In this document: positions 2,911 to 34,801 of the stretch, one piece after another
Layout of the letters: each line of letters opens with the position of its first letter
How positions within the stretch are numbered: the first letter of the stretch is position 1
Assembly: GCA_903813345.2 (NCBI GenBank)
Contig: CAIIXF020000009.1
Coordinates: forward strand, 186,001-250,000
Source: Owenia fusiformis
Lineage: Eukaryota; Annelida; Polychaeta; Sabellida; Oweniidae
Length of the DNA: 64,000 nucleotides
Reading direction: 5' to 3'
Made by a program: the position numbers and the translations under genes
The notes under the pieces: generated by a model
Told to the model about the DNA's origin: nothing
Database searches by the model: none
The model's input: only the letters and a program-made list of their open reading frames with translations

Positions 2911-3060
2911 ATGCCATCTTTAAATCTTCTCATTGATTACGATGACACCAAACACTATTGTAAAATATTAGAAGGAACCTTTATGTCATTTCAGGAGAGC
3001 CCCACTACCCAAACAACTGATATCACTGATACAAGTTTAACCGACACCAGGCCAGAGCCG
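2911..3060 (+). CDS. Gene 1, first visible exon
   Basis: The frame ends ...DTRPEP at a gtatgc donor (3061). Two readings are possible: a first exon from ATG 2911 (50 codons), or an internal exon beginning at 2995 after tttatgtcatttcag (22 codons, ESPTTQTTDITD...). Both are phase 0. The TTQTTD motif resembles a dynein light chain LC8 binding site (inference). Confidence 0.6.
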
Positions 3061-6000
3061 GTATGCCTTTTCACAAACAAGAGGTCCATTGTCTTAAAAA
3101 AAAGATCCACTCTTATACAACCTTGTTTAGCCAATTAAAGAATTCAATCAAAATTATATTAATGCAATATAAGTACGAATAACTAAATAATATTTATCAT
3201 CACAATGAAGGGAAATATTGTTATGACCAGCTATGTCTACTATATATGGTTACACTTTTGTTTTGTCAACATGGATTGACCTTTTGTTAACATATATGTT
3301 TTGAGCGATACTGTTTCTTTCCAGAGCGTTTTCCAGATTTACCCAATCGATGTGTCTACAGCTATTGCCACTGATACTAACCCAACAAGAGACGATTCCG
3401 ACGAGCCAGCTTCAGTAAGTGAAAATGATCATGTTGAAATATGTTTTAAAATTCTGAATTGGCGAAGAGTAGTTTAGTATATTCTTAAGATTTGACACCA
3501 GGATAAACTTCTGACGTCGCTTTTGGAAAATGCTTTAAGAGTTCGCCGCAACATCCCATTATACTGTTCATTGATTCAGAAGATTTGGGTGGTAATGTAC
3601 ATGTAAGGTTTATTAGAACGGTCTACAGACCGATTCGTCGGCCAATGCCTGCCCGATTGGGTATTTTGTTAAAAATTGTACCATTTTGACCAGAATACTC
3701 AATCGGCCGGGCGCCAGCCGTTGAATCGGAGCAAAAGTGAACAGGCATTAGTGGCTGATTATTGATTTCAGCTCAGTGTCAATAGTGTAAGCGACCCCAA
3801 AGAAGACCTTAATGATTTGTTGAAGGAGCCGAAGGCTAAAGACGATAGAAGACAGGAAAAAGAAAACAAAGTACGAGAAGACGAAGATAAATTACGTAAA
3901 GATGCAGATGAAAGAAGAGCAAAAGAGGATGACATCCTTACTACCAGTCAGAAAAATATACACACAACTGCACAGAAGTTTATCAGTTATAATATTGAGG
4001 TTATTATTCTCAATTTCTCAATCAGTGTATAAATATTTTGCCTAATTTCATGAATATTGATGAAGTAAACATTTAAAATGCATTGATTTTATACTAGAAT
4101 GACATAGACTAATATTGTGTTAGTATAATTTCAGGTCGAAAGTCAAGAAGTTGAATGCCAGACCGATGCGCGAGATTTTGGGACAGAACTAGATAAGCGC
4201 GATCCGTCATTTAGTGTTACGCCATGCAATTATTTTCATTCTGACATTGGCACACGTATTAAAGAGGTTGAAGTAGACAAAAGCGGTTCGACTAAGAATG
4301 AGGTGATGCTTATTAATATTTTATTTCGTTCTTATCATTTAAAATTAAAAATCTAAGAGGTTTCATTTGGAGAATCGAGAACTTTTAATTTGTGGGCAAA
4401 TTAACGATAATTGATATTATTTTAAATTTCATGAATTCTGCTATTCTACCGCATCCTGCGCCATATGTATTGAGATCAGCGACACTATATATGTGCTATT
4501 GTGCTGTCAACACAACTGTTTACCATGACCATACAATATATATTGAAAATATTGCTTATTATTTCTTAAAAACAGCTTTAATGGTGATTTTAGAGGGTCA
4601 TATCTTTCACAAAGAGTACTTTCTGGGCATAAATACAATGTTTTTATTAAAACAATATGTTTTCTTTCAAGTGAAGTACCCATGATCATTAAAATATCAA
4701 TCGAACAATTCGAAAATGTTTGAATATGGACCCCATCTCAACATTTTTTTCAAAATATTGAACCTATTTACTCAAAAGAGGATCTCCCATTTCTGATTTT
4801 TATTGCATGAAAAGATTATTCAACAAGGGGCTAAAACATCTTGAAAAATATAATTGTATTGAAAGTCCAGTTTTGAAGATATCAATTTTCGATGACCAAA
4901 ATGATGCTGAAAACAATGGATAGCACGAGTTTTCCATATGGGGAAATAAAATGGGATATGTGGTTTTTAATTTTAATGCATTTCAATACACATCCCCTTT
5001 TCGGAAATTCATATAGTGTACAAGAAACTTTTGATATGTTTAAATTGAGAAAAGCAAGATCCTCTTTTTAGAAAATAAGCCTAACATTTTTTTTAAAATG
5101 CCAGGGTGGGGCCCTAATCCATAATTTTTCAGAGAGTTGGATTGATATTTTACTATCATGGGTACTTCACTCGAAAGAAAACACATTGTTTCAATAAAAC
5201 CATTGTTTTTATGGCCTGAAAGTACTCATGGTGAAAGATATGGCTGTCTAAAATCACTTGCCATACTGCACGTGGTCCTTTTGCTATGGAAACTCGGACA
5301 ACATAACAGATTATGCATCAAGTCCGTCGATGATTTCTAACTGGTTAATAAAATATGTTTCCCACCATCTCTCAAAGGGGTTGTTTGATATGTCGTTCTC
5401 ATTAAAAACTAACACGTTTTATAATGTCCATATGTTTTGTATCCTCCAACACATACTTAACATATTCAATTTACTAAAAAATCGAATTTATTGAGAATTT
5501 ATATAACAATCATTTAAATACTACATTGGATTAGTCTTCTGAAAATAATTGTTTGAAATAATAATGTGCATTCATTTAATCTTCATGTTTGGAGGATACA
5601 CAATATTAGACAGCAGAACCTAAATCCACCACAAAAATAACAATATTTTGCCCAATGTTTTCATTGTCTGTCATTTAAGAGGTAACCCAAAGGGCACTTT
5701 CTGGCGAAATCTCAAACAAATGATGCATCAGCAATGTTAATTTAAACAGTGTGTTGGAGGATACAAAATATTAGACAAATGGTATATGCATAGGGAAGGC
5801 ATTTCATTGCATGGGTTACACATCTAACATCGCCCTTTTAAGACCTGATGTCAAACATATTTTCTATATAGTATGAAAAAAATCAACGCAATCGATGCTC
5901 TGTATGTACTGTAATTCGGTTTTGTATCACCACAAACAAAACAAAACTTTGTTTTTGACAAAAAATCATCATTTAAGCTGTTTTGAGAAATAATAAGCAA

Positions 6001-9000: not shown

Positions 9001-12000
9001 ATTCAGCGCTGTAATCATGAATAGGGTCAGTACTGAATTTTAGTGTAAATGCTGAATTACTGTAAGCAAGCTTTTTTACCCATTTGCATCTTGCGCATCC
9101 CTACATCTTAATATCCTAATATATTACAATTTAATGAAATATAACAGCACAATATTTTCCATTTATTTTGATTATAAAGTTGGATAACATTTGATAAGTA
9201 TAAAAGTTGGTTTTGGAGCATTTTCATAGCCACATTATATGGAAATATAAAAAAGTATATTCTTTCAATTTGAAGTATGATCTGAATCAATTGCAAACTT
9301 CATATTTGCACATCCAATGTGGTATACCTTTTTGCTTGTGTCATATTGTCAATTAAGTTAGGGGTCTGTTCCGAAAAAATACTTGAATAGGAAGTTGATC
9401 ACTGATAAATCAAGATTTTGCTTTACCCAAAACATAATTTTACTGAGACTCAAGCTGTCATATAATCATGTAAGACTAAAGTTATTTTATTTTATTTTTT
9501 TTTAATTCATTTATTCATTCTTCATACATAGCACAGCAAATCATACAAAGAAAAGCTTGACAAGGCAAAGGGATCTTCTGATATGCCTAAAATAAGACTT
9601 GTTGAATGAAGTTGATTTGATTCAATTACTCAACACCACTGGATTTCCAGATAGATAGAGTCCTATATGATCGTCACAGTCTCAAAAAACATAGTCATTT
9701 AAACAAAAATCATTTGTATCCCTTAATTCATCTTGCTTGTTTCTTGTAATGAATTTGAAGGTTTGGCACATATTGTTAATTGTTTGTTCTAGAATTTGTC
9801 CATTATTTGTCCATCTCCATCACATAATCATAGGCATCCGAATCATACATATGTTCCACTCCCAATCCATCAATGAGGCGCATATATCTTTCCCTACATA
9901 TTGCGAGGTTGAAGTTGGTAATTGCTGCTACATCATGTGTTGAAATAGAATCAGTGTTTGTGAGTTTGGAATATTTTTCATTTTCGCATTGTGTTGATTT
10001 GTTGTCGGATTGTTTCTTGATGTTGACACTGCAACCTCTGTGTTTTTTATCCAAATTGTTTGTTTTAGTGGCGACATGTTGCACTTTTATTTCAGTTGCA
10101 CTTGATTGGTGTATTTTTTGTTTCACATCTGTTTGCATCCCAACATTCACTTTTTTTATTCTGTCTCCAGGATTTCGCAATTGCAATATTGAAGTAAATC
10201 CACTGTCATAGTCACCTTTTTTTGCTGTGTCAGTTTCATTGTTATTGTTTACAATTTCACTGTTTCCTTTAGTTCTGTTTTTAAACAAGTCTCTATTTAG
10301 TACAGGTGTAACAGGTGTTGACTGTTCATATAATCCTAATTCATTTTGTTCATGGTGTTTAGGTTCACTCAATAGTTTTTTGTTAGAATTGTAATCACTA
10401 ATCCTATTAGCATCTCTTATAAGTCTACTTGGTGACTTGGTACTGGTTTGTGACCTTGGGTTGCCAAAATGGTGTGCTTTATATTCCAATGTAATAGTAG
10501 TTCCATTGTTTGTTGAATTTATCTTGTATCCTCCTAGAATGCACCCTTCCTCTTGTAACTCACTAATCAGATGCTCAACAATCTTGGGAAACATTGTTTC
10601 TTTTTAATTTCTGCAATGTTCAATACATTTCACTGATTTTTACCTTTTTTCACGAGCACTTTTTTCCCCTGTTTAAGACTAAAGTTATAGTATCCCTTTA
10701 AATGTGATGTGACGTCATAGCCTCGTTCGGAATTCAATAAATGACTGATCAAGTAGAAACTGTTTCTGTTCGTGCTCTCTTACAACTCGGTATTTATTGT
10801 CTCATTACACAAGCGACCAGTGTTCTTCTGAGATAATAGTGACTATGATTATATCCCGATATTCCCACGATGAAGATATCGGGATATGATTATATCCCCA
10901 TGTTGGGTCAATACAAACTTACATTTAATGCCCAAAAAATTAATTCTGTCAATTGAGGTATTTTTCTCAAAATCTTATATTGCACCCCGTCCTTTATAAA
11001 ATAGTGTTTCTTTATTATTTGGGGTATATTTTTCTTTTAACTGGGTTCGCTCTGGTTTTGTTATTTTCATTTCTATTTGTAGTCATATTTATAAAGAATT
11101 GTTTTAATTCTAGGCGACAAATGAAACCACTGAACGAAAAGAGGTGCTCATAACAGGAGATACAGAAGTTAGGAAAGATCAAACAGAAGGTGAGTGGGCA
11201 GTATTACCCCCTATCGCACCAAACTAGTTCTTACCCGTTCTTACCAGTCCTACGAAAACGTCGTAAAACGGGCTCAATCTGGTAGTGGTCGGGAAATATG
11301 TCTAAAATAATTAGCTACTTCGTTCATAAGCAGTATTCGATACGTCCATCTCATTCCCAGATTGTTCAGATCGCACCACGTCGGTAAGCAACGTCGTATA
11401 ACACGTCCCTTAGTCTAGAAGGTCATCATGACCTGATTACAGAACGGTTTGGTCGCCATCGAATTTTGAATCGATCCAAAATTCTAAAATCACCTTCCCG
11501 TCTGAGAACATTCGTGAAGTTCGTAAATAGACAGTAAAAAAGTTTCAGCTACGTTCATTCCGTTCGCACCAGTTTTGAAGAACGCAGTGGCGACTTGTTT
11601 GGTGTGATACCTATATTTTTGCTAGCTCGTTCATAAGCAGTCTTAAATACGTTCTTAATCAGTTTAAACCCGTTTGCAATTAATTCTACCTCGTTCTCAA
11701 TACGTCCTCAGACAGTTCAACTCGTTGTTAAAACGTCCCTAGTAGGATTGAAGTACGACGGTTCCGTTCGTAGTACACGTATGTCCAGCTCGTCGTTAGT
11801 ACTTTGTCACTCGTTCTAAATGTAGAACGTATCGACCACGAGAACATTTTGAGCATGCATTAAGTTCTAGAGGACTTACCCTTTCGAATACGTTCGATGA
11901 ACTTTGTAAATAGACCCCAAACGGTTCTAAGTACTTCCAGTCCGTTCGTACACAGTTGAAGCCCGTTTTCGAGAACGTAGTGAAAACTAGTTTGGTGTGA

Positions 12001-15000
12001 TAGTAGGGTTAAAGACAACTTTCTGAACCTCCCGGTTGCTTATTAGACATAAGGCAAGTCACATCTATAGGGCTTGTTAATCGAATCCTTGTCCAACCAG
12101 CTAATAATGATGCTCGGTGGGATAGTATTTAAGTTCATAAACATAGCAAAGGCATATGTGATATATCATACATTACAGTCAGTGAACATGGACTGAATAG
12201 AGAGCATGCGATATAGGTTTTGTGCCAAACCTTTACTGCAACTTCCAACATTTAAATGACGTAAACACCAATGGAGAGGAAACCAGGAAAGTTTATTTTA
12301 TTAGAAAATGTTTCCTCGTTTCCTAATCAAGGAAATGGATTTGTATATATGCCAGCAATGGCAGAATTAATTTTGTTCTATCAGACTGGCCGAACATAAG
12401 ATATTAATTTATGTTTCCTGGTTACCTTTATTCTACTTTATAATATAAACACAGTTTCTTGATATTACGAGACTCAAAAGATACAGCTTTAAATCTGGAA
12501 TATGGCGACAGTGCTTCGCGGAAACATCCTGAACGAAAATACAATATGCATATACAGGTTCCGGGGCAAATCACACAACAAAGGACGATTCTCGGTTTGG
12601 AGAATGAAGTTCATCAATCTAAATGAGCATTATCCCTGCTTCGGACAAATTTGATTTTTTACATAATATAGATTTGAATGTCCTCTTTTGAATAGTCATA
12701 ATTTAATTTGGGTAATATTTCTAGATTTTTCGCAAAAATATATTAGCGCAGTACACTGATGAACTTCTTTCCCCAAAATCGAGACTTGTATTTTATTGAA
12801 TCGGTCTAATTGAGCGTTATCCCTGCTTCAGACCAATTTGTTATTTTTACATCTTGTAGATTTAAATGTCCTCTTTTGAAAATTCATAGTTTAATTTGGG
12901 TAATATTTCTATATTTTTCATGAAAAAAATTATAAGCCCAGGAGACTGTTCTCCAAACCGAGAATCGTCCTTTCTAAGTTGTAATCATATTGTCGCGTGC
13001 CAGACCACCGCCGAGGACCCATATGCTCCTTCAAAAATGGTATGGTTGCGATTGAGGTTAGACCAGAGTTAAACGTCTCCTTGCCACAGCTTCAAGCAGT
13101 GCTTCTTTTTTCCTGGAGTATCTGTGCTCTGAACATATACTGCACCTTCTGGAGTATCTCTGATCGGAATTAACACACACCTTCTGGAGTATCCCTGCTC
13201 TGAGATTAAAATACACACCTTTTGGAATATCTCTGCTCAGAGATATAAAACACACGCCTTCTGGAGTATCTCTGCTCAGAGATATAAAACACACACCTTC
13301 TGGAATTTCTTTCCTCGGAGATATATGTAATGACCTTCAATAACAAGTCGCTACTACAGTCTCAGCTGTAGTGGCTAGCCTTTATGGCTCAGGGGTAGAG
13401 CGTCTGACTCAAGAGCGGGAGGCCCTGGATTCGATTCCCGTACGAGGCATTTAATTTAGCACATTCTCTTTCGAGTCTAGTATCTGGCTCGGTACACTAC
13501 AGCTCCCCGACGAGCGTGCCCAAGGGTCGTTACATTGGTGTCAGAAGTGGGATTGCCCTTGTGAATCAGTTACGACGGGACGTCGTCTTCTAGGGGGGAT
13601 GTAGTAATGACCTTCGATAGCAAGTCGCTACTACAGTCTCAGCTCCCCGACGAGCGTGCCCAAGGGTCGTTACATATACATTTGTAAAACACACACCTTC
13701 TGGAGTATCTCTGCTCGTAGATATAAAACTCAGGAATGTAGATACATATGGAGATTAGACCAGAGTTGAATATCTCCTGGAAGTAATTTAAGATGGCAGA
13801 TCAAGAGGAATGCTGGGTAGAAGAAGAGTGACGTCAAAACATGGCTGCTTAACACTATGATCCAATATGGCGATCACACTGATCAAAATTACATCTCTAC
13901 ATTGTACACACGCGAGCAATTTAACTCTACGAGTCAACTGACTTTACATATAAAAAATGGCAAAATTAACAAATGAAATAATACAACAATTTTAGAATGA
14001 CATTGTCCGTGTTAAATGAAATAACCAAAGAAACACATTTTGCCACAGTATTTTGAAACTGGAACTTACAAGATACACTTGCCTCCCCAGTGCTTCACCT
14101 GACTTGTACAAGGACAAGCTTGCGTATACGTTTTTCAAATAACTTATATTGAAAGCTCTGTAATAACTTACATCGAATGCTCTCTAATGATAGTAATTGA
14201 CGAACATCTTTTAACAAAGAGTCTTTATATGTATATTTTGTTGTGCCTGTCACATAAGTTTTCCAATTGCTTTTTGTAAAGTAAATGTAGGCTTCCTCTT
14301 AATTTACAATTACAAGTAAATTTCTTTTTTTTGTAATTCATGTTCTAAATTCTGACATCTAAATTTGACATCATAAAGCAATTGCTTTTGGGATTATTTC
14401 AAGAATAAAATGTAAAAAGCAAACCCCATAAATCCGAAACCATGATCTAATGTGAAAAGTAACATTGGAGATTTTAAGCAATGCAAATAACATCGACATG
14501 TCAACCTGTACTTAAACAGGCGCTTTACAAATGCATGTAACATATTTGGAGCTAAAACCTAAATGATATTTATGATATTTTTTATCAGTATATTATTCAA
14601 AGGATATGAGTATAATTATTCCCCTTGACAACGTGCAAATCTCCCGTTCTAAACACATAACTGAGGCTTGTTTTTTACGCATGCTATACACATTACTGTA
14701 TTTATTAATTGACTTTGCATTTACGGTTATGTTGTGAAACCCCGCTAGTTTAAAGTCTCTATTGTCTAATACCCTCTTTCTCTACCATTCAATAAAGCGA
14801 CGTTCACACCAACGGCACTTTGATGGCGCTTTAAAGCCGCTTGTAAAGCGGCACCAAAGCGTAGCAAAGTTTGATTAAAGCGTCGGGGTCGTAATAGGTC
14901 GTAGAAAATGTTGGAGTAAAGTGGGATATTTGGCAAGAGCGCCAAAAAATTTTAAACAGTTTAAAAATTTTGGGTGCTCTGTTATGAATTAATTAAAGCG

Positions 15001-24000: not shown

Positions 24001-27000
24001 TATTCTGTAAATCATGCATATGTGATTCAAAATCAGTGGAAAAAATTAATACATCGTCCAAATACGCTAACGCAGACTGATTAATCAATCCTGATAACGC
24101 TAAATCAATGCACTTTTGCATAGCAGAGCTATAACTGTTTAAGCCCATTGGTGTCACATTCCACTCATTGTCATCCCATCAAATGTTTTGAACGCAGTAT
24201 ATCGTTTACTATCTTCTGAAAGTGGTATTTCCCAAAAAGCATGAGCCAAATCAATTGAACTGAAATACATAGGGCATTTTTCACCTATAGAAGCAATTAC
24301 CGATTGATATTCAGGTAATGGATATTGATCTGATCTGATTTGCTTGTTTATTTGTCTAAAATCTTGAACAAGTCTACACTCTTTAGTTTTAGGCTTCAAA
24401 ACCAAAAGAATTGGGCTACTGTAATTACTTCTGGATGGTGAAATCACATTTTGTTCTGCTAACTCTTGCACTAGTTCGCTTTGTATCTTTCTTTGAGGAG
24501 GACTCAATGTATATTGCCTACACTGCACAGGAGGTGCATTCTTATCTTTCAATTGAATTTCATGTTCAAATAATGGACACCTGCCTCAGGTAGGATTCGT
24601 TTCAATGAATATGTCCTTATAATTATCGACAAGTTTCTGAAGTTGACTTTTTTTATCTTCTGATAAGTCTGATTGCGATACGTCTAAGGGGACATTGATT
24701 GGCTTAATAGCGTTGACATTACTACTCTGTGAATCATAAATTCTTTTTAACACGCAAGAGTCATTGGCCGGAAACGCTGAATTATCAACCTGCTTTATTC
24801 TAGTCAGAGAATGAAATGACCCCACATGCGTACCAGACCTGACAGTGATGGGAACACTTTTAGTATTCACAAATGTTGTTCGAATTTTACTTGCCTCACA
24901 TTGATCAATCGTTCTTGCCATATAAGCGGCTAACTTATTCAATTTGCTTGAACCTTCAATCAAACCACTAACATTTTTCTTTGAGCTAATTAGTGGCAAT
25001 TCTACCAATTTTTCAGATTTTGGCGGCAATATTATATCCGTTGCTAAAAATACCTTGCATGATTTCGGAATGCGTAACAACATTGTACCATTTGAATGAA
25101 ATCCCAGCTCGATAGAGTTATCGGACATGAAATCTCTACCTAATATTATTTTCTCTCATAAATTTGGTAATACATTTGAAAATCTCTAAAATCAAACTTT
25201 GGAGAAATTGCACATAATGGTTTCAGTACTTCACAATTTGCCACTTCGACTGAAGATGTAGTTACCGGGACAAGTTTTTCATATGACATGTACCTTTTAA
25301 ACACATTTTCGCTAATAAAGCTTTTGTCTGCCCCAGTGTCTATCAAAGCTTTGATTTGGTTCCCATTCACTGCAATAGTTATTTGACTGTTATTGTTTAT
25401 CTCGATTTCTTCATACATTCGTCTTCCCCGTTTTCTTGTTGATTTAACTATTGTCCCAGACATTGACTATTGACTTTCTAGGCATATGAGTGTCTTCCCC
25501 TCCATTCATATGCCTTAGTCGTTTAAATTTTTAGCATTGCACTGAAAACTTCTGTGCCCTGGCTGACTGCAGGCATAACAAACAATGGGCCTGGAGGAAT
25601 TTTGAAATCTGGGAAAATGGTTTTCATTACCTTTTGGTCTTGTGTCTCTGTGACTGTTCCTTTCATCTCCATATCGGAACCAGCAATCCGCTTCCCCGTG
25701 TCTAGATTTGGTACAAATTTGACACTTCGTAGATCTGGTGTCACTTCCGCTCTTTGCCCCCATCGCATTGGCACTTGTCCTGATGCAGTCACTGGCTGTA
25801 TGGCCTTCCCCTTACATGCTTGACAAACTATTCTACCCATCTTCGTCTTCGGCTTGGATAGATTGCCGGCTATCTTCAACGTTTCTTCTGCTATTCTTGC
25901 TGCATTTACCGCCGCCTGCCATGTCGTCACACTTTGTGGATAGACTATGTATTTTATTGGGTCTTATAAATTGCGCACAAACTGTCTCGTTTTGTCCTGC
26001 TCTGACCTGTCCAATCTATTTCCTAATGAATGGACTTTGGTTATGTAGTCCTCTAAAGATGCACAATCAGCCATCTTAAGGTCCGCCAATTTGTTCTCTA
26101 AAGACCACAATGCCTGGCAATCGCCAAAATGTTTAACAAAGCTGGCTTTAATTGAGGAAATATCCTTTTTGTCATCCTCCGACACCGTTCCGAACCAACT
26201 CTGACATTGAGCCGAAGGTCCCATTAAAAGCCTCAAAGAATGTACAATTTTGTCTGGTGTGTTAAATGTTTTATCATATATCGAGACCATGCTTTCGAAA
26301 TTCGCAAACCATAGCGCGCAATCCTCCTCAGAATGTCCATTAAATTTTCCTTGTCGCAAAGACATATCCACCATGATGTCCTGCTTGTCCTCCAGTAGTC
26401 TAGTTGAAATTTCGTGTAATTTTCTATTTCTCAAATCCATAAAAGTTCCATTGAGATTGTGTTAGAGGACGTGGGATCTTCGCTGCTCCACCATGTTACA
26501 AAGGGATATTATTCCCTTTATATTAAATAACTGACTATTTCATATTTTGCTTTATTCAAATACTTTATTTTATTATCAAGAGAAATTATGAGAATATGTT
26601 CATCTTTTAGAAGATGGGCCTAAACTGATTTAAATATAAGCCTGATGGACATGGTCAGTGACCATGACTGACCACTTACATAAGTATTTCGCCTTACGGC
26701 AAGGAATGTAAATTGGGAGATGGTATCTTTTAATTCAAAAATAACATAGATTTTAACTATACCACACTATCACTCATATTTCAATGTGATCTAAACAATT
26801 TATTAGGTCATTATGTTTAGTTTTAGAAAGTTTTGTACCTTACACCTACTATTTTGGGAATAAGATTTATTTATAATCAAAACAATTTTTTCCAATGCCA
26901 TATGTTGTGGCTGAAAACTAAACGACTAGATAACTATTAAAATACTTCTAGACTAATTGTAAATGTAAATCAGGGACCATTATCTGTCATTTATGCTATG

Positions 27001-30000
27001 CTTTTCTTTATTTCAATTAGAGAAATTGGGGATTCTCCTGCTGTTTTCGCAAAGCTTTGCATATAAGCCTACAAGATGCAAACGATTTAGCGATGAAAAA
27101 AAGGCGAAAAAATGAAAACAAAATACGTGAAGAGGAAGACATTCGAAGAAAGGAGGAAGATGAACGACGAGCCGCATATGACGCTGTAAGTTCTAATTTT
27201 AATTAATTGTGCTTATATGTTGTTTTGGAACAGGTGAGCTCAACAATCAAGGTAACATTTCACAAATCATTAAAACCAAGCTAGAACAATTGAATTAATT
27301 ACTCCAACTGTAGATAAGGAAACATAACCAAGCAAACCGGTGTGAATGAAATGATGGTCCCCCGGGTATTATGTTCTCCTTTCTTAACGGCCCTTACTGG
27401 CCCTGATTGCGTATAAGATAATGAGGGAAAGAGTTGCATTTAGGTCACCATATAAATCAATGGAGAGTAGGACAATAATTTGATAGGAACTCCTACCCTT
27501 TTACACCAGTCAATTATCAATCAGAAAAACACATTATTGTACTACGACGGCTAGTACGATACAGAAACTAATATCACTATTCAAAGCAAAACTAAAGTAT
27601 ATTTGGATTTGTAAATTAGCGAATTAATTCTGACTTCAGGTACAAGCAAAGTTTGGGACTGAAGGTAGTCTTAAAGATTTGGGGAAAAAACTACACCATG
27701 AAGAATTTTCAAGACGAGCAACTGAAGATAAGAGGCGAAATGATGAAGATCAAAGAAGAGAAAATGAGCTTCAAATGCGAAGCACAGATATCCTTAATCA
27801 GGTCATGTCTTATACAGGGCAAATGAAAAATAACGTTCTTTCATTCCAGCAAAATTTTTACTATTATTTTTGATGGAAAACCTTAATGTAAAGATCTTTT
27901 TTGCAATTGTTCCCGAAACGAATAAATAAATAGCTGTGTGAATAAGAGAGGATAAAAGACACAAGGGGTCTTACTGTAAAAATACACTACTCGGAATAGT
28001 TTTTGAAGCAACAATGTGGATATTCACAGAAACATGCAATCAATACATTCCCTTGTTTGTTTGTCAAAAAGACAAGTTCTTTAATGCATGGGCTAAACCT
28101 TACCGGTCTATAACCACAAATAAAATCATGCTTATTTACTTTTAAAGGCAACTCTTTACGATTGTGAACCACTAAAAACTTCATCAGAAATATGAAGTCA
28201 GTATATATCTTCTTCGTGGCAAATTGAATTTCAATTTCAGAAAATCAAATTATGTCATGATTTGTATATTATGCAGCAAAGGTTAATGAATGTTTGCGAA
28301 TTTGATTGCAACATGTACAGATTAAAAATATCTTACCTTTAGTCTTTTTATTGGTCAAAATCCGCTAAATAAACGAAGGATATCAGTGGCGGATCCAGAA
28401 ATTAACAATTGGGGAGATGTATAAGCAAATGGGGCACTAACCTTCAATTCATAGACACATATATTCTTACACAAAATTTTGGGGTACTTCTTTCTAATCT
28501 TTTTTTAATGTAAGAGTTATTTAATGTAAATATATTTAATACGTTCCAACATGTTAATCTATGTAAAAGCTTGCTCATAGCATAAATTGAAGCTATAAGG
28601 CCAATCATTTGTGTAAAGATAATATGTGCTTACAATTTACATTAATTTGTATTGAGCCATGCTGAATCAATAGAGGAATTTGGGTAGAAATAAGTACACT
28701 ATTGAATAGGCTGATGATTTAGGTACTAATCATACTGAAATATTTCTAGAGAAATTGAGATGTTCACTTTCTGTCGATTCTAAACTGCCTATTATATTTA
28801 ACAGAGATGTCCCTCATGCAGTGCATCTGTTTGCTTCTGTAAAACAGAAACAAGGGATTCAAACATCACTGCAATGAGAGAAAGGGAAGATAAAAGAAGA
28901 GAAGAAGATACAAGACGAAACATAGAAGATAAGAGGCGGGTTGCATACGATCGTGTGAGTACAACTATGCCATTTTCAACTTGGCATATAAAATCATAAA
29001 TGAGTAAGAAGTGTGTTAATTTTGATGCAATTTGGAAATAAAATCTGTTGATGTTGTATTGGAATGGCCAGATATTTGATTTTATTATAAGGTACAATGT
29101 ACACAGTGCGTATCAAAAAAAGCGCAACAGATTGTTATCTTGGAAAAGCACAAAACCAGTGATAACAGCATTAATTTCATTCAATGCACCATAAAGCCAT
29201 TTGTCTCCTCTTTACAATGATATATCATTCATTGATAGTTGGTCATGTTTGGGTGAGTAATCATTCCATTTGTAAAGTGGGCCAAAATTAGCTTCGGGTC
29301 AAGTTATAAACATTGCAAAAGTCAGTGCAATATTGGACGAAAACATAAAACCAATGCTGACTGCATCCTTTTAATTCAATGTACCAAAAAACTAAATTAC
29401 TCCTCTTTGCAATAGAATATCATTCATTCACAGGGAGTCCTCTCTGGCCGAATAATCATTAAATTTGCAAAGTGGGGCAAAATTCAGCTCCGACCCAAGT
29501 TTAAAACATTGCAAAAGTCAGTACAAGGGGCATAGGGGCTATTGGAAGAAGGTGTGGCAGGTATGGCAGAGACAGTAAAGTGTTCATATTAATACTCTTG
29601 CAAGAATGCATCCTTTACCCCTCCAAATTGCCACCACTTCCTTGCACTTAAAGATGCGCTCATCTGTCCACGTCATGCATGGTTCAGCCCTGAATCATTT
29701 CTGGGTTAAAGCAAAGAAAAGCAGCCCATGGGCAAATCTTTCTCGAGGTTTTGCAATATCTGATGGAGGAATTGTGAGCACAGATGCTCCTGAGATAGCT
29801 CCAAAAGAAAAAGTCACAACAATTCAAGTCAGGGGAACTTCCATTGGTAGCCCTTGCACTGATATTTTCAATATCTAAAACTTGGCGCAGAGCCGATTTT
29901 GGCCCACTGTGCAAATGGAAGGATTTCTCACCCAACCATCACCACATGTGAATGAATGACATATCATTGCAACGAGATGAGATATGGCTTTATGGTACAT

Positions 30001-33000
30001 TAAATGGAATTGATGTAGTCATCACTAGTTTTGTGATTTTACGAGATAACTACTTGTTGCGTTTTTTTATACACCCTATATATCATTTCAATTGCAGCTT
30101 TTTGAAGACATACCAGACCTCACTGAGTTACAACATATTAGAAACAAGACAGATAACCAAATCAAAATAGAACGCCTCAAAAGCGAGGAACAAAAATTCA
30201 CTGAAGAATTGAAAACAATTAGAATGATAAATAAACTACATAAAAATCACAAAAAACAATCACCAAATGATAAAAAAGAATGGAGGGAAAGTACACCAAA
30301 ACATGTTAAACTTCTTTGGAAAATAGGTAATATCCATCGTGAGATTGGTAGACTTGAAGGTGATCAATTTGAATATATAAAGGCGATTGGTATATACGAA
30401 TGCGCAATAGTGCACTGCCATCTTGTTAATGAAGAATTAAATACCACTGATACAATATCAGAAGACATCAGCGAAACATTAGTTCATTTAGAAAAAGGTA
30501 GAAGAAAGGCTTTGGACCTCTTTTTTCAACACTGTACAGGGAAGGGCACGCCAAACCAATACTTTAAGGATGAAGAGGAGAATAAAGAAGAATTAAAAGC
30601 CATCAGAAAAGAACTTAAATACAAAATCCAATCAATGGATAAGGAATCATTCTGGTTTGAGCCTAATCTACGGCCTGAGGAAAGAAAAATACGAGAGGAA
30701 AGTCAAATAAGAGAAAATGGGAAGATATTTGAATGGATCCAAGGCAAAATGAAAACGTTTGTGTCTCGTTTAGTGACGCAATGTAAGAAAATCCTAGACT
30801 TTTGCAAGAATGACTTTGCCTTCTTAGCATTCGGTTCATTGTCGAGAAAAGAAACAACTCCTTATTCCGATGTAGAATTTGCTGCAGTTCAGGATTCGAA
30901 TGACTCCGAGATGAATCCAGACTATAAGATGCGTCTTACAAATGTGATTATGACACTTCATCTCAAATTCCTATCATTTGGTGAAACAATTCTTCCAGCA
31001 ATGTACATAAGATCACTGAATGGTCCATATAGCAGTGAAGATTGGTACTTTGATCAAAGAAAATATGTTGTCACCAAGCAAGGAATATCGTTTGATGGCT
31101 TGATGCCTTGGGCGAATAAAACACCATATTTCACGATAGAATTAAAGAATGGAAAGAAGTTCTGCTTAACAAACACAAAAAGAGCTTTCATGCAGTTCTT
31201 CTGGGATAACGACAATGCAAAAATCGTGAAAAAATTGCTCTTTTTCTTCAAAGGCGATTTTACAACAATATTTGGAGACAAACAAATTGAGGCTGACATG
31301 AGGAAGTGTTTCATGAAATCTCCACAAAGGGAGCAAGTGATGAAGATGATTGTTGATGAGTTAGAGGACGATTTTGAAAAACACTCCAACGTGAAAAAGA
31401 TATATTATGCCAAGTACAAAAGGAAGCTAATTGAAAAGGATGAAATCCATGTGAAAAAGGAGCTCTACCGTCTCCCAAGTGTTGTTATCAATAACCTTCT
31501 TCATCTAATAGGCAACAACATAACATGTGCATGGGACATCACGGAAAACAATTCCAAAATACACAGTGATGTCATTCACAATTTAAAAATGATGTTATCA
31601 ACATCTGCAGAAATTCGATTACGATGTTACTCCAATGAAAATGGTCAAGTGGATGTAGAAAAGGGGGAACTATTACCAGATATCTTTGTTGGGACTGATG
31701 TAAATAAAGATGTCTTCGGGAAGAGTCTCATTCTACGCTATTTCCTTTCTGCCATCCCATTCGTACTTGCTATGGAGGAAGCAAAGGATAGAAAATCAAA
31801 CCCAAGAACTGCAGACAAGAAAGCAAAACAGGGACATGTTGCTCGAACTATTATAAGGAAAGAAAATCCGAGAGCTGGAAATATGGGAGACGCAGAGCGT
31901 AAAGCTAGAGATATAGATACTTTGCAGTATCGAGCAGTGCCAGGGCATGAAGAGGATAATAAACCTGGAGAATACATACTCAGGTCTCTAAAAAGTGCAA
32001 CACTGTATGATCCATCCCATTTGAACAAAGCAATGGCCTACATATTAATGAATGACAAAAGAAAAGCTGAGGAAGAAATGAATAAAGCAAACGAATGTAA
32101 AACATATGACACCTCACCGACACAACAAATAATGTACATTCTTTGCAATACTTTCATAGATAATGACAGTATAAGTAAACCATTTTTTGACAAGTGGAAA
32201 GATAAAGCACTTGTAAATGAGGAAATGGATATAGATGTCAAGAATGCATTGGGAAATACCCTACGGCAGAAAGGTAATGTTATGGAAGAAACGGAGGTGC
32301 TGGAAACAAGTGTAGACGATTCTCTCAAAGATCGTAGAAAAATAACATCAGTTACACTTCTTAACTATGCATATGAACAGGCCAACAATGAAACAAAGCT
32401 CCAGGAATTGCATGACAAATACCCAGAGATTAAGGAGGTGAGTAGTTGCCACTATTGCCAACATATAATGAATGCACCTAAGAAATATGTATAAAAATAT
32501 TTCCTACTTATTAATGGAACTTATAAATGGCAGTCATTTTCAGAAAACCAGTTCCCTTCAATCTAACCATCAATTGAAGTTACAAGTAATAATATGTCTA
32601 CAGAGACACAACATAGAATGATCAAACGCTAAAAGAAAAAAATGAACCTTTTTAAGTCTTTTTTCAAGTGCGACAAATGAAACAGAAGCCAACATTTTGT
32701 CCATTATTGTCTGCAACCTGGAGTCCTGAATTAGTTACCATATGAGTTATTATTACTTCTAGATTCAAAACATGAGGAACGAGCTAAAGACTCTGGAAGA
32801 TGAAAATGCTAAACATAAAGCAAAGGTAATTATGCTTTCATGATTTACAACATATTTGTATCAATACATCACACATCCATACTTTTTATTATTAAGATTA
32901 AGGTGGAAATTTGAAAATGTTCAAAGGATGGTGTCACTAAATTTAATGCTTAAAATGTAATGTGACATGTATAAAAGGTACAGGATAACAAAAACATTAC

Positions 33001-34801
33001 GCAAATAAATATCTATGATGGCATGGGAATATGATGATAGCCCCATGTTAAGGCCTTAGTGCATATCCTCATGTTAAGTCCTAGCTCAAATCCTCATGTT
33101 CTAAGTGAAAGTCTACGGTAGAGGGAAAAGCTGACATAACCAAGTGTAAACATATTGAACACAATGCTGTAGGCTAGTTATGGTCGAAATCTGGACAACT
33201 AATTCTTAGAAATTCCTAGCTCTTAGAAAAATCAGCCCAGGGACTAATGTATAAATGGCAGCAATTTTTTAAATGACTGCCCATCAGCTGAACTGTTATC
33301 GCAGTTTAATATTCTTCTTGAGCTCTAAAAATTCAACAAAATCACTATAATTACTTTTTCAGTTATAACAACAATGTAAAATAGGAAACATAAACATGAC
33401 CAATTTTTCAAAATGACCATTTACTAGCCAAATTGTCATTGGATAGTAATATGCTTTTGATTATTCACATATAACATTCAACAAAATGTTGTGTGTTATA
33501 TTTTACATTGTTGCTATGACTGAAATATTTCTGGGGCGATATTTAAAAAAAAATTATAAGCACTTTACTTCTTCGATCCAGTGAGACTTTGGAAAGTGAG
33601 GTACCATTTTGAAAAATGTTGGCCATTTTATGTTGTTTTACTGTTCAGATCTAAAAAATCCTAGTGTAGCGACTTTTCTTTAATAAAGGGCCACAGGATG
33701 TTTGTAGAATTAATAGGGGGAGTTTTTTCATGCATTTCGCTTGTGTTTTTCAACTTAAAAACATCAATACACTTTAAACATTTTATTGACGATAAGATTA
33801 CACCATATAATCCCCCCCCCAAAAAAAAATTCTCATTTTCAAAGATTATTTATTGATAACACCCAGGTATTTTTATTTTTCAAACTTCAGAAGGCTTGGA
33901 GAATATTCTAGGGATTAAAGAATGTGTACAGTTTACACAATTTGCGGAATTATTGGCATACATGAAATATATTTTAAACAGCATTCTACAAACAACTTGC
34001 GGTCGTTTCATATGTGAATACTAAGAAGAATATTAATCTTATGACAATTTTGCTAATTGGTTGTTATTTCCATGTACAGCTGTAGTTTGCTTCTAAATCT
34101 CACGAAATAATTTATATTTGGCTATAGGTAGAGAAGATTACCGAGCAGAATAGACAATATGAAAAAGAAATCAAAGAATTGCGGAGAAAGAGGGCATGTG
34201 ATTCGAGAAAAGTAAGATAGTAGCCTGGCCAGAACAAGTCATGCCTCTCTATTTTATCAATAACTTTCCCAATTTTGAATATTTTTTCATTTAATTTTCA
34301 CAGAATAAACTTTAAAGAATTCCTAACATACAAATTTTTTTATATGGTAAATACCCCATTAATTTCATTATTACAACCTTTTAAAAAATAATGTCATATT
34401 CTGTTGATGGGTCATCTTTGTCGCCGATTTAGCAATAAGCAGACAATACAGTGAATCATTGGAACAAGGAGAGGAAGAGGTAATGCGCATCTATACTTAA
34501 TATTAAACGCATGATTCATTTGATCAATCAAAACATTGATATTCCATATGCAAATTTAATAACGCCTGAACACACAGATGGAAGAACAAATGAACGAATG
34601 GATGGAGGGGGGTCTGATTCTGTATATTCGTCTCGAACTTTGTTCAATCATTAATTCTGTATAGAGCAAGGAGAAAACAATTGATTTTAAATTGTACTTG
34701 AAAAGTGTAAAAGGATAATATATTGGTCCTCTTAATAAGTCAAGACAGGGCAACAAATACTACTGGATATTGATTCTCGATTGGAGGAGAAAGGGGTGTA
34801 A
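2911..34801 (+). CDS. Multi-exon gene: charged heptad-helix exons + GlnD/DUF294-type nucleotidyltransferase + TPR-like/coiled coil
   Basis: The exon chain is 2911(or 2995)-3060, 3325-3414, 3772-3999, 4135-4302, 7888-8007, 11114-11189, 15925-15992, 16215-16403, 27021-27185, 27640-27801, 28805-28954, 30098-32437, 32763-32825, 34128-34211, 34745-34801. All exons have AG/GT borders. All joins are phase 0 except 11189/15925, which is phase 1 on both sides. If translation starts at ATG 2911 the product is about 1,369 residues; if 2995 is a true acceptor, the first exon lies outside the window. The domain order is a Thr/Asp-rich N-terminus with QTD motifs, about 300 residues of Arg/Glu/Asp-rich helix, TPR-like helices, a nucleotidyltransferase core, more TPR-like helices, and a coiled coil. 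No signal peptide or membrane segment is seen, so it is probably cytoplasmic. The substrate is unknown. Similar NTase-TPR combinations occur in invertebrate gene families without known function; a signalling or immune role is only a guess. Confidence 0.8.
3325..3414 (+). CDS. Gene 1, exon 2
   Basis: It runs 30 codons between a ctgtttctttccag acceptor and a gtaagt donor, phase 0 at both ends. It codes for SVFQIYPIDVSTAI... and an Asp-rich end. It is of low complexity and probably disordered. Confidence 0.7.
3772..3999 (+). CDS. Gene 1, exon 3: charged RR/ED helix
   Basis: It has 76 codons after a gatttcag acceptor. The donor (gag|gttatt) is weak, but it is the one that keeps phase 0. The middle carries REDEDKLRKDADERRAKEDD and then DIL, the same pattern as the exon at 27640. 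It is predicted to be a continuous charged helix. Confidence 0.7.
4135..4302 (+). CDS. Gene 1, exon 4
   Basis: It has 56 codons, an acceptor of taatttcag and a donor of gtgatg, phase 0. It contains ECQTDARDFGTE, a second QTD-type short linear motif, and ends Asp/Lys-rich. No domain is recognised. Confidence 0.75.
4570..5275. mobile_element. Inverted-repeat (TIR) element, non-autonomous
   Basis: The arm near 4577-4705 (attttagagggtcatatctt ... aagtgaagtacccatgatca) is repeated in inverse near 5130-5262. The two arms are diverged, with about 420 bases between them. The same arm sequence makes up the shorter element at 6420-6648. There is no coding capacity. Confidence 0.65.
6420..6648. mobile_element. 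Short palindromic MITE, same family as 4570-5275
   Basis: Two ~90-base arms face each other: aaaggtccatgtgcagtatg ... on the left and its inverse ending gtactgcacatggacctctt on the right. It would fold into one long hairpin. Confidence 0.75.
7065..7850. mobile_element. MITE family A, copy 1
   Basis: The diverged terminal inverted repeats begin aaaggaccttatacaccctc and end caccttgtccttt. Inside is a sub-palindrome (gaatcgattgcaaactt ... aagtttgcaatcgattc). It aligns end to end with the copy at 38295-39091 and with pieces of 8875-10999. It is non-coding and ends about 37 bases before the acceptor of the next exon. Confidence 0.85.
7888..8007 (+). CDS. Gene 1, exon 5
   Basis: It has 40 codons between a tatcatttag acceptor and a gtatgt donor, phase 0. 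It codes for AKNNQCSKPVERF... and an acidic helix ending DVNEEKQ. Confidence 0.75.
8031..8872. mobile_element. Non-autonomous TIR element, ~840 bp
   Basis: Terminal inverted repeats of about 23 bases are seen: cttaaagtccccgtctaaag at the left, and the imperfect inverse ending acatggggcctttaag at the right. The inside is A/T-rich with many A-runs and no frame. Confidence 0.65.
9486..10673 (-). mobile_element. LINE-mobilised retrocopy (processed cDNA) with 15-bp target duplication
   Basis: The 1188-base insert is flanked by perfect direct repeats taagactaaagttat (9471-9485 and 10674-10688). Read on the minus strand it starts with a 5' leader, holds one long open frame, then a 3' tail with gaatgaataaatgaatt (polyadenylation signal AATAAA) followed by an A-rich tail next to the target duplication. 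These are the hallmarks of target-primed reverse transcription of a polyadenylated RNA. There are no introns. It sits inside the LTR fragment. Confidence 0.88.
9803..10594 (-). CDS. Intact 263-residue frame of the retrocopy, function unknown
   Basis: The frame starts ATG about 79 bases into the retrocopy and is open to a stop before the 3' tail. The N-terminus (MFPKIVEHLISELQEEGCIL) is amphipathic and helical, followed by a GGYKINSTNNGTTITLEYK strand-like segment. Then comes a long polar, Asn/Ser/Lys-rich, probably disordered middle with two short TQ motifs (GMQTD, KSTQCE) that resemble LC8 dynein light chain sites, and a more ordered C-terminus (AICRERYMRLIDGLG...). I do not recognise a family. 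It may be a young retrogene, a processed pseudogene of a host gene, or the ORF1-like protein of a non-autonomous LINE. Confidence 0.65.
   Translation of the reverse strand: MFPKIVEHLISELQEEGCILGGYKINSTNNGTTITLEYKAHHFGNPRSQTSTKSPSRLIRDANRISDYNSNKKLLSEPKHHEQNELGLYEQSTPVTPVLNRDLFKNRTKGNSEIVNNNNETDTAKKGDYDSGFTSILQLRNPGDRIKKVNVGMQTDVKQKIHQSSATEIKVQHVATKTNNLDKKHRGCSVNIKKQSDNKSTQCENEKYSKLTNTDSISTHDVAAITNFNLAICRERYMRLIDGLGVEHMYDSDAYDYVMEMDK
10870..11113. other. MITE right end and intron tail before exon 6
   Basis: It contains the right part of MITE copy 3, preceded by a small palindrome (atatcccgatattcccacga / its inverse), and then the pyrimidine-rich acceptor ttttaattctag of exon 6. Confidence 0.5.
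11114..11189 (+). CDS. Gene 1, exon 6
   Basis: It has 76 bases and codes for ATNETTERKEVLITGDTEV... The donor gaag|gtgagt is strong and leaves one base of a codon (phase 1), which is completed by the exon at 15925. Confidence 0.75.
11200..12010. mobile_element. TIR element of two ~400-bp tandem halves
   Basis: The left end ccctatcgcaccaaactagt is inverted at the right end actagtttggtgtgatagta. A second, similar right-end copy (cttgtttggtgtgatacc) lies near 11597-11614, so the element looks like two related ~400-base units in tandem. It is full of gttc/gtac words and has no coding frame. It starts about 10 bases after the donor of exon 6. Confidence 0.7.
12580..12973. mobile_element. MITE with 25-bp TIRs and internal direct repeat
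   Basis: The ends are aaggacgattctcggtttgg and its near-perfect inverse at 12948-12973. Between them a ~190-base sequence containing gagc(a/g)ttatccctgcttc is repeated directly (about 12590-12770 and 12780-12965). Confidence 0.85.
13326..13674. mobile_element. TRIM-like miniature LTR element (fossil)
   Basis: The left LTR is 13326-13534 (209 bases) and the right LTR 13600-13674 (75 bases). Both begin TGTA, end gggtcgttaca and share cagtctcagct ... ccccgacgagcgtgcc. The 65-base interior starts with a primer-binding-like ttggtgtcagaagtgggat and ends with a purine tract. There is no protein gene. The left LTR is longer because it holds a 137-base tRNA-like insert. A related copy is at 37155-37321. 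Confidence 0.8.
13368..13504 (+). repeat. tRNA-like (SINE-like) insert inside the TRIM LTR
   Basis: It contains an A-box-like tggctcaggggtagagcg and a B-box-like ggattcgattcc at tRNA spacing, and the D-arm stem pairs perfectly (GCTC/GAGC). The acceptor and anticodon stems are imperfect, so this is not a good tRNA gene. It lies between two cagct copies. The copy at 37155 has the same downstream sequence at the same site, so the insert is older than either copy. Confidence 0.7.
14805..15785. mobile_element. Non-coding element built of inverted ~12-bp aaagcgtaacaaag words
   Basis: The left arm (about 14815-15090) is rich in words like aagcgtaacaaagcttgatc. The middle (15110-15350) carries the inverse (gctttgttacgctt), and 15540-15770 returns to the first orientation. 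The ends (ttcacaccaacggcactttg and ...gtggcattcgccgttgta) are imperfect inverses. It looks like a foldback/TIR element with sub-terminal repeats. Confidence 0.6.
15925..15992 (+). CDS. Gene 1, exon 7 (68 bases)
   Basis: The acceptor is atatgattgcag and the donor gat|gtaagt. It takes up phase 1 from exon 6 and ends in phase 0. It codes for (D)QILQHIEADILMRNGTEERSRD. It was found because exon 6 and exon 8 would otherwise be out of frame, and it restores the frame exactly. Confidence 0.75.
16215..16403 (+). CDS. Gene 1, exon 8: charged RR/ED helix
   Basis: It has 63 codons, an acceptor of ttgaatacag and a donor of gtaaat, phase 0. After ITFDIDEQYENKL it runs through about five heptads of the type EEDIRRD / EEDERRE / EERMRRE / DEDKIRQ. 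It is predicted to be a single charged helix or coiled coil. Confidence 0.8.
16696..19535. mobile_element. Foldback (FB/TU-like) element: inverted arrays of 137-bp units
   Basis: The ends are perfect inverses (gggcatactagttaaatagc ... gctatttaactagtatgccc). The left arm holds eight head-to-tail units of 137 bases (about 16905-17950) and the right arm about five units in the opposite direction (18675-19330). Each unit is itself a hairpin, aactagttaaatagcgcccc ... ggggcgctatttaactagtt, with an acacgtg core. The centre (about 17950-18670) is a further palindrome with shorter aggggcactatt(a/t)aa words. Long inverted arms made of tandem repeats are the defining feature of Drosophila FB and sea urchin TU elements. 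There is no coding sequence. It sits in the 10.6 kb intron of gene 1 and abuts the LTR at 19535. Confidence 0.9.
19535..26766 (-). mobile_element. Ty3/Gypsy LTR retrotransposon (fossil)
   Basis: The 5' LTR is 26494-26766 (273 bases, TG..CA). The 3' LTR (19535-19742) lacks its outer part where it meets the foldback element. A primer-binding-like tggtggagcagcg follows the 5' LTR. On the minus strand, in order, come gag (about 25.9-26.4 kb), a CCHC zinc knuckle (about 25.5-25.7 kb), aspartic protease (DTGAD, about 25.1-25.5 kb), reverse transcriptase (YLDD, about 23.9-24.6 kb), RNase H with tether (about 23.05-23.8 kb), and the integrase zinc domain and core (about 20.6-21.8 kb). It is broken in several places and holds a 1.2 kb insertion (21821-23048). 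The LTRs differ by roughly 3-4 per cent in the shared part, so it is moderately old. It lies inside the intron of gene 1, antisense to it. Confidence 0.9.
21821..23048. mobile_element. TIR element carrying a ~135-170-bp satellite, inserted in the Gypsy copy
   Basis: The ends are cccatcgaac and gttcgatggg (perfect 10-base inverse). After the left end comes a gtccgtccgtccgtacgtac run and a gggcaataactcaaataccg segment. Then six tandem copies with the core ttggtatgtgaatactataa ... gcacactgtctaatgacac follow, spaced 134-173 bases, linked by ttttgaaaaatggcggccat words. Short open frames in it are repeat artefacts. Degenerate relatives lie near 33250-33680. Confidence 0.8.
27021..27185 (+). CDS. 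Gene 1, exon 9: charged RR/ED helix, AYD type
   Basis: It has 55 codons, an acceptor of tttcaattag and a donor of gtaagt, phase 0. It starts RNWGFSCCFRKALHI and ends REEEDIRRKEEDERRAAYDA. It is clearly a paralogue of the exon at 28805 (shared cysteines, AM(K/R), heptads and the AYD end). Confidence 0.82.
27640..27801 (+). CDS. Gene 1, exon 10: charged RR/ED helix, DIL type
   Basis: It has 54 codons, an acceptor of tgacttcag and a donor of gtcatg, phase 0. The charged part (RRATEDKRRNDEDQRRENE) is followed by STDILNQ, parallel to the DIL of exon 3. Confidence 0.8.
27802..28804. other. Intron 10 of gene 1, no further feature
   Basis: It is AT-rich. I see no gene, no clear TIR pair and no tandem repeat. 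Confidence 0.4.
28805..28954 (+). CDS. Gene 1, exon 11: charged RR/ED helix, AYD type
   Basis: It has 50 codons, an acceptor of tatatttaacag and a donor of gtgagt, phase 0. It opens RCPSCSASVCFCK, a cysteine cluster (C-x2-C ... C-x-C) that could bind a metal, and ends REDKRREEDTRRNIEDKRRV with AYDR. It pairs with exon 9. Confidence 0.82.
29102..30078 (-). mobile_element. Decayed Tc1/mariner transposon next to the main exon
   Basis: The TIRs are cacagtgcgtatcaaaaaaa gcgcaaca at the left and ttgcgtttttttataca at the right, each next to a TA. On the minus strand a transposase remnant shows SSPDLNCCDFFFWSYL, the region around the third catalytic Asp of mariner transposases (usual form SPDLNPCDFFLWGYL); the rest is decayed by frameshifts and stops. 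The left half holds a ~190-base direct duplication (about 29140-29335 and 29345-29530). The right end stops 19 bases before the first base of the 30098 exon. Confidence 0.78.
30098..32437 (+). CDS. Gene 1, exon 12: GlnD/DUF294-type nucleotidyltransferase with TPR-like flanks
   Basis: This single exon has 780 codons, an acceptor of catttcaattgcag and a donor of gag|gtgagt, phase 0. Residues 1-60 continue the charged helix. About 68-150 form helical pairs with TPR-like spacing (LLWKIGNIHREIGRLEG...YIKAIGIYECAI). About 238-268 hold the nucleotidyltransferase signature FGSLSRKETTPYSDVEFAAV: the nucleotide-binding G-S, then two metal-binding carboxylates in a D-x-E pair instead of the D-x-D of bacterial GlnD. 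A third acidic strand is probable near residues 340-350 (YFTIELKNG). About 620-740 are again TPR-like (ATLYDPSHLNKAMAYILMND). The expected chemistry is transfer of a nucleotide to a protein, nucleotide or RNA end; the substrate cannot be read from sequence. An in-frame TTG at 30092 is part of the intron, not a start. Confidence 0.8.
32763..32825 (+). CDS. Gene 1, exon 13: coiled coil
   Basis: It has 21 codons, an acceptor of ttacttctag and a donor of gtaatt, phase 0. The sequence IQNMRNELKTLEDENAKHKAK fits heptad spacing. Confidence 0.75.
32826..34127. other. Intron 13 of gene 1 with degenerate satellite copies
   Basis: It is non-coding. Near 33250-33680 there are decayed relatives of the satellite in 21821-23048 (ccattttgaaaaatgttggc, agtgtagcgacttttctt). 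A C-run/A-run lies near 33812-33829. Confidence 0.5.
34128..34211 (+). CDS. Gene 1, exon 14: coiled coil
   Basis: It has 28 codons (VEKITEQNRQYEKEIKELRR...), an acceptor of atttggctatag and a donor of aaa|gtaaga, phase 0. If the donor is not used, translation stops two codons later (VR stop), so a shorter C-terminus is possible. Confidence 0.72.
34433..34479 (+). CDS. Possible alternative 47-base exon of gene 1
   Basis: It has an AG before and a gtaatg donor after. In one frame it reads ISRQYSESLEQGEEE, which has coiled-coil character, but that frame needs phase 1 and the exon before ends in phase 0. It is either a frame-changing alternative exon or not an exon. Confidence 0.25.
34745..34801 (+). 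CDS. Gene 1, terminal exon
   Basis: The acceptor ttaataagtcaag is followed in phase 0 by TGQQILLDIDSRLEEKGV and a TAA stop (34799-34801). It joins exon 14 in frame and prolongs the coiled coil. An AATAAA lies 36 bases after the stop, which supports a last exon. Confidence 0.55.
   Translation, partial: TGQQILLDIDSRLEEKGV

Follow-up and report, generated by a model that had tools for sequence, protein, structure and literature searches.

A large annelid gene family with a predicted GlnE/DrrA-type nucleotidylyltransferase core and apparent relatives among effector-type proteins of intracellular bacteria

GlnD, the PII uridylyltransferase, carries its nucleotidyltransferase (NTase) domain ahead of HD and ACT domains. 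GlnE, the glutamine synthetase adenylyltransferase of bacterial metabolism, possesses two NTase domains, and DrrA/SidM, the Rab1 AMPylator of Legionella, includes parts for guanine nucleotide exchange (GEF) and for phosphatidylinositol 4-phosphate (PI4P) binding (PMC12409994); the adenylyltransferase motif of this type is given as G-X11-[DE]-X-[DE], with glutamate permitted at the second acid (PMC8097203). In metazoans, FICD and SelO are described as two classes of AMPylase (PMC8097203), of which FICD also has a tetratricopeptide repeat (TPR) domain (PMC12409994). The NEX2 family of Neochlamydia comprises 50 proteins with TPRs, mostly combined with F-box and DUF294 domains and in ten cases with OTU; just two of them are predicted to be secreted, but in those tested with a heterologous assay the type III signal works (Domman et al. 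2014, PMC4209131). Here we compare with these systems a gene of the annelid Owenia fusiformis that lies in a stretch of 64,000 nucleotides, hereafter the window (positions 186001-250000 of contig CAIIXF020000009.1, within the 498-Mb animal assembly GCA_903813345.2). With a probability of about 0.6, this gene encodes a multi-domain protein nucleotidylyltransferase with the GlnE/DrrA fold, which would fit a role at the host-microbe interface.

The central feature of the gene is a 780-codon exon on the plus strand (30098-32437), open from acceptor through donor within a stop-to-stop frame of 30050-32494. It comprises N-terminal helices (residues 1-150), an NTase core with a helical bundle (approximately 150-530) and TPR-like C-terminal helices (approximately 620-780); the catalytic core as aligned covers residues 150-530 (30545-31687, plus strand), and related cores are found in bacteria. 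The initial annotation had described this open exon together with an active-site motif, and both the frame and our reading of the motif place them where it did: G246-X11-D258-X-E260 (30833-30877, plus strand) conforms to the G-X11-[DE]-X-[DE] pattern of GlnE/DrrA-type adenylyltransferases. In an alignment of 31 animal rows (1 partial) drawn from about 100 loci, G246, R250, E252, S257, D258 and E260 are invariant in all 30 rows that cover them. D333 (31094-31096, plus strand), a candidate third metal-binding acid on grounds of conservation, is Asp in 29 of the 31 animal rows, the other two having a gap and a Ser, and in 12 of 12 bacterial rows; it would probably bind metal. The core is under purifying selection, with ratios of nonsynonymous to synonymous substitution (dN/dS) of 0.13-0.43 in 12 pairs of paralogs; a thirteenth pair was saturated. 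Of the 8 pairs with comparable parts, 6 show the strongest constraint in the core; one exception is L041/L042, with 0.15 in the N-terminal part and 0.16 in the core. The dN/dS of the TPR region is 1.7 to 2.9 times that of the core in three pairs of the TPR type.

The structure prediction proposed in the initial annotation was carried out with AlphaFold on the exon sequence and 12 bacterial cores, yielding predicted template modeling (pTM) scores of 0.63 (whole exon) and 0.75 (residues 90-570). The model contains the anticipated NTase sheet and, in addition, flanking helical bundles of the adenylyltransferase type. In VIA-align, the top ranks were held by DrrA and both GlnE halves, with scores of 24.3, 22.1 and 19.9 when the exon was the query and 24.4, 19.4 and 18.6 when the core was, compared with 10.4 (exon) and 7.8 (core) for the best unrelated chains, and Foldseek likewise placed DrrA first (E 4.9e-5, 9.1e-6) and GlnE next. 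At the sequence level, a profile search without structure was weak (E 0.01), NCBIfam returned weak short matches at the motif to ANT(4') (E 0.01), [protein-PII] uridylyltransferase (0.08), MntA (0.12) and HalB (0.14), and phmmer with the exon against the PDB found no significant match (best E 0.2). We regard the GlnE/DrrA adenylyltransferase fold of the core as a fairly secure prediction, resting mainly on the structure model and the motif, and we hold the predicted enzyme class with high confidence.

Several observations weigh against this reading. The model is poor (pLDDT < 50) at residues 309-325, 522-642 and 681-752, among others, and the TPR-like C-terminal helices sit in a low-confidence part of it. 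Overall fold agreement rests on VIA-align, because the Foldseek superpositions on DrrA have large rmsd values (13.5 and 13.2) and low query TM-scores (0.28 and 0.41). Identity to DrrA is 12%, and the second acid is Glu in the window core versus Asp112 in DrrA. The Pfam DUF294 (PF03445) search suggested by the initial annotation gave a divided answer: the window exon scored 19.6 bits against a gathering cut-off of 21, and a profile search of the genome produced at least 53 matches that do not include the window's own place, whereas all six other animal family members scanned passed the cut-off, at 22.7-43.1 bits, and matches at E <= 0.01 were obtained for 30 of 31 animal members. One paralog, L007 (G000:C3:21842932-21846180), has Ser in place of D333 and Asp in place of S247; lacking these two residues, it is possibly an inactive or altered enzyme, and some family members may therefore be inactive. 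In the pair L020/L022 constraint is weakest in the core (0.43, against 0.26 for the C-terminal part), and dN/dS above 1 occurred in none of the pairs compared, so that they show no direct sign of an arms race.

The domain content of the exon separates it from the known systems in different ways. Its Pfam scan gave one weak TPR_8 match (20.7 versus a cut-off of 25.7 bits); HD and ACT are absent from the exon's families at E <= 10, as they are from the families listed for six family members at E <= 1 (the first 25 rows in one case). Mab-21 is also absent from the Pfam list of the exon, although absence from such a list does not amount to exclusion from the cGAS/Mab21-like receptors. With GlnD the core shares the NTase superfamily, the weak NCBIfam match at the motif (E 0.08) and a relationship through Pfam DUF294, and to this extent the GlnD/DUF294-type assignment in the initial annotation stands. 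The layout is not that of GlnD, however, because HD and ACT were not found in the exon, and GlnD was rejected as a class on this domain layout and on the predicted fold, which is that of GlnE/DrrA instead. Unlike GlnE, the window protein has one NTase domain and is not a bacterial metabolic enzyme. The predicted fold is shared with DrrA, but GEF and PI4P-binding parts are absent from the Pfam list of the window exon, and the protein has a charged helix and TPR-like helices instead. FICD and SelO are animal enzymes that place AMP on proteins, but with other catalytic folds (Fic and kinase-like, respectively) than the window core. The likeness to NEX2 lies in the order of a DUF294-type core followed by TPRs, evident from the TPR arrays of sister genes and weak in the window exon, and in membership of a large expanded family; in contrast to NEX2, where most members have an N-terminal F-box, F-box and OTU are absent from the families listed for the animal members scanned, and the bacterial copies reside in a secreting bacterium.

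New relative to the initial annotation is a family of at least 100 distinct loci on 12 large and 8 small contigs, obtained by merging places from genome searches within 2.4 kb; these counts are minimum values, each locus may represent either a gene or a fragment, and in-frame stops occur in a few. Searched against the genome, the exon recovered at least 22 loci, among them its own place, with identities of 43-100% and at least 36 more at 24-32%. The window's subfamily comprises 22 loci and forms a single group in a tree of 52 rows (22 rows, support 100/100), on a long branch of 2.44; the backbone of this tree was not resolved. For the tree, 53 of 62 cores were kept (at least 230 model positions covered), after which L043 was removed because it duplicates L003. 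Also omitted are L056, whose match contains a stop, repeated retrievals of one gene, and L072 (a neighboring copy in G004). The six sister genes scanned outside the subfamily (L001, L003/L043, L007, L038, L041 and L042) all possess TPR arrays, with up to 16 TPR_12 stretches in L041. These arrays and the charged exons described below agree with the TPR-like helices and the charged, coiled-coil region of the initial annotation, and its placement of the gene in an animal agrees with the nuclear-receptor ligand domain, which has 29 matches in the assembly versus 0 in 14 control genomes. At most of the family loci listed, the cores lie in long single open frames, whereas this nuclear-receptor control domain is split (29 matches, median open frame of 111 aa). 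As separate observations on family members, L028, L029 and L030 show an M-G-N-x-x-S start close to the beginning of the open frame, which we take to resemble the motif of N-myristoylated proteins and which raises the possibility that some members are targeted to membranes; in L026 (3160-4581) a 78-nt unit occurs 18 times (91% matches) and encodes 26-residue S/T-D-T..S/T-N-T repeats ahead of the core.

Also new is the finding that, as far as sampled, the nearest kin outside this genome appear to be effector-type proteins of intracellular bacteria. Among 72,556 plasmids, the only significant match of the window core was to a plasmid of Neochlamydia sp. S13 (26% over 98%, E 3e-20), with two other plasmid records reached at E 10 only, and queries with L038 and L003 returned this plasmid alone at E <= 0.01. 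From their layout, we read the genes of this plasmid as NEX2. A contig scan of approximately 85,000 prokaryote species, which used one degenerate pattern around the motif (at least 595 stretches), detected at least 16 relatives in no fewer than 14 loci, mostly from intracellular lineages and including metagenome-assembled genomes (MAGs). By record title, and among the matches listed, these loci belong to Parachlamydiaceae (1), another Chlamydiae MAG (1), Midichloriaceae (3), Rickettsiaceae (4), Amoebophilaceae (2), other Alphaproteobacteria (2) and Cytophagales (1). Most of these lineages live inside cells, a statement that covers the groups other than the last two. Because the scan pattern was built on the motif, the bacterial conservation of T-P-x-S-D-x-E arises partly by construction, which does not apply to D333. 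The identity of animal cores to bacterial ones is about 24-39%. Relatives are scattered within the sampled groups, being present in 10 of 190 genomes from the phylum of G001, 6 of 174 from the order of G003, 1 of 385 from the class of G006 and 1 of 395 from the class of G004; known matches account for 2 of the 10 and 3 of the 6, and both single ones are the starting genomes themselves. Three genomes in the phylum of G001 have at least 10 matches each. Four of the six bacterial proteins scanned (L044, L048, L051 and L058) passed both the DUF294 and TPR cut-offs, while L045 showed TPR alone and L047 one weak TPR, their cores being detected by profile A2; L058, from Neochlamydia, carries an F-box, and L049 has a match to a Ulp1-type peptidase (E 1e-5). 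The viral contigs and phage records scanned yielded no relative.

From the predicted fold and the conserved residues, we infer that the core would use D258, E260 and probably D333 to bind metal together with a nucleoside triphosphate, and would transfer a nucleoside monophosphate (NMP), with AMP as a first guess, onto a partner protein at a side chain bearing a hydroxyl. The flanking helices would select or hold this partner, namely the long charged helix, the coiled coil and the short TPR-like end in the window's subfamily, and the TPR arrays in the sister genes. AMP as the nucleotide and protein as the acceptor seem to us probable, although well short of secure. The expansion to about 100 loci, the conservation of the core and the effector-type kin would fit a set of enzymes acting on proteins at the host-microbe interface; a signaling or defense role, as suggested in the initial annotation, may apply, and a role in defense or symbiosis is put forward as a possibility to which we give a little less than an even chance.

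Other explanations of the same evidence were weighed. An active NTase that uses a non-protein substrate, such as RNA, a small molecule or a nucleotide signal like those of other pol-beta immunity enzymes, is unlikely in our judgment; aminoglycoside nucleotidyltransferases, MNT antitoxins, terminal uridylyltransferases (TUTases) and CD-NTases do occur in the fold lists, at lower ranks than DrrA and GlnE, and families of cGAS-like receptors are known from invertebrates (PMC9980059). The Asp-to-Glu difference at the second acid, the loss of two motif residues in L007 and an activity that is only predicted would all suit a pseudo-enzyme serving as a scaffold or nucleotide sensor, but this is quite improbable given the six residues kept in all 30 covering animal rows, a family motif that permits Glu (PMC8097203), and a core that is the most constrained part in 6 of 8 pairs. 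Least credible of all, and very improbable, is that the family represents mobile-element cargo or bacterial contamination rather than host genes: loci on 12 large and 8 small contigs, introns and charged exons common to paralogs, and identity to bacteria of only about 24-39% speak against it, despite the scattered relatives in intracellular bacteria, the mostly single-exon cores and the abundance of mobile DNA nearby.

The direction of transfer is a separate matter. Bacteria may have taken the genes from animals or protists and made effectors of them, rather than animals from bacteria, an account that we consider possible without favoring it. Eukaryote-type partners accompany the bacterial copies (the F-box in L058 and the Ulp1-type peptidase match in L049), and domains of this kind are called eukaryote-like by Domman et al. 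(PMC4209131); on the other hand, the long single open frames of the cores, set against the split nuclear-receptor control, fit an intronless arrival in the animal. The tree, with its unresolved backbone, favors neither direction. The reading as a protein nucleotidylyltransferase also admits a broader and more speculative version, which is doubtful as it stands: this lineage would have a third protein-NMPylating class, unrelated to FICD and SelO and present in about 100 copies, host and invader would share a protein-tagging weapon through gene transfer, and the animal copies would serve intracellular defense or control of symbiosis, with the coiled-coil or TPR parts choosing the target. If the proteins are active, they would constitute a third class of animal AMPylase-type enzyme, with a bacterial-type catalytic fold and a very large family, that is not among the animal AMPylases named in the consulted portions of PMC8097203 and PMC12409994. 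With kin mostly in cell-dwelling bacterial lineages, as far as sampled, the family would allow exchange of genes at the host-symbiont interface to be tested. Our search of the open-access literature, judged by titles and the beginnings of abstracts and with most subscription papers outside its scope, showed no report of this family as an animal's own genes among the entries listed.

Outside the 780-codon exon, splicing and exon joining were deduced from splice sites, phases and paralog comparison, and each proposed exon encodes 76 aa or fewer, all on the plus strand. Four charged-helix exons precede the core: type X at 16215-16403 (63 aa, 189 nt), type Y at 27021-27185 (55 aa, 165 nt), a second copy of X at 27640-27801 (54 aa, 162 nt; 47% over 43 aa to the exon at 16215) and a second copy of Y at 28805-28954 (50 aa, 150 nt; 49% over 42 aa to the exon at 27021), every length being divisible by 3. 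The exon at 16215 matches L039 (43%, E 2e-10), L040 (43%, E 2e-9) and L012 in regions upstream of paralog cores, and the exon at 27021 matches L012, L011/L040 and L039, so that both types recur upstream of the cores in three paralogs, L010 (L039), L011 (L040) and L012; the E-values of these charged stretches are flattering because composition correction was off. Since the four exons nearest the core are two copies each of X and Y, the window's gene seems to have duplicated one X-Y pair. A scan for splice-bounded charged segments (at least 35 aa), with thresholds chosen after the charged exons had been seen, located 5 clusters on the plus strand of 2400-30090, 0 on the minus strand of that interval and 0 on either strand of 36000-63500. 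This restriction to the coding strand, the recurrence of X and Y, and a single open frame in L027 that holds both a charged helix and the core together support the assignment of the upstream charged exons and the core to one protein; L013, with no charged exon in the 1.4 kb examined, counts against it.

The two ends of the gene and the count of 15 exons are less certain than the rest of the model. Tentative 5' exons at approximately 2911-3061, approximately 3325-3418, 3772-3999 and 4135-4302 (together 2911-4302, plus strand) encode T-D-T/QTD motifs and one charged segment. The exon at 3772-3999 was picked up by the charged-exon scan and is related to the exons at 16215 and 27021, while the remaining ones rest on our reading of the sequence, without a confirming paralog alignment; S/T-D-T repeats also occur upstream of the core in paralogs L026 and L028-L030. 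A possible alternative first exon (15915-15992, plus strand; ATG, 26 codons, phase 0, donor gtaagt) is likewise tentative, with no convincing match among paralogs. Toward the C-terminus, a coiled-coil exon of 21 aa (32763-32825, plus strand) matches L032 (48% over 21 aa, E 9e-4) and is the only one of the last exons with a convincing paralog match. The segment at 34128-34211 (plus strand) may be a further coiled-coil exon of 28 aa or the last exon, so that the gene may end at a stop just after 34217 or at 34801, as in the initial annotation.

The window also contains repeats and mobile elements. A minus-strand open reading frame (ORF) at 9803-10603 (266 codons), considered as a second gene, was ruled out as a repeat: it has no Pfam match at E <= 1 and belongs to an unclassified family of which the genome holds at least 51 matching pieces; this number includes the ORF, and the remaining pieces reach 97% identity, many of them with stops. 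The large 5' introns contain repeats, and this ORF is therefore no argument against a single gene. An LTR-type retroelement lies inside an intron at 19535-26768, where direct repeats of about 97% identity (approximately 19535-19744 and 26563-26768) flank minus-strand ORFs that read as gag/pol-like. A second, apparently uninterrupted Gypsy-type element is read at 55701-59873, where a single minus-strand ORF of 1390 codons appears to encode reverse transcriptase and integrase. A tRNA-like stretch at 13378-13449 (Rfam 30.6 versus a cut-off of 29 bits, without an ARAGORN call) is possibly a tRNA-derived repeat. Finally, two arrays of 137-nt tandem units, with 8 and 6 copies in register, occupy 16738-19368, and in the second array one copy lies 816 nt apart from the others.
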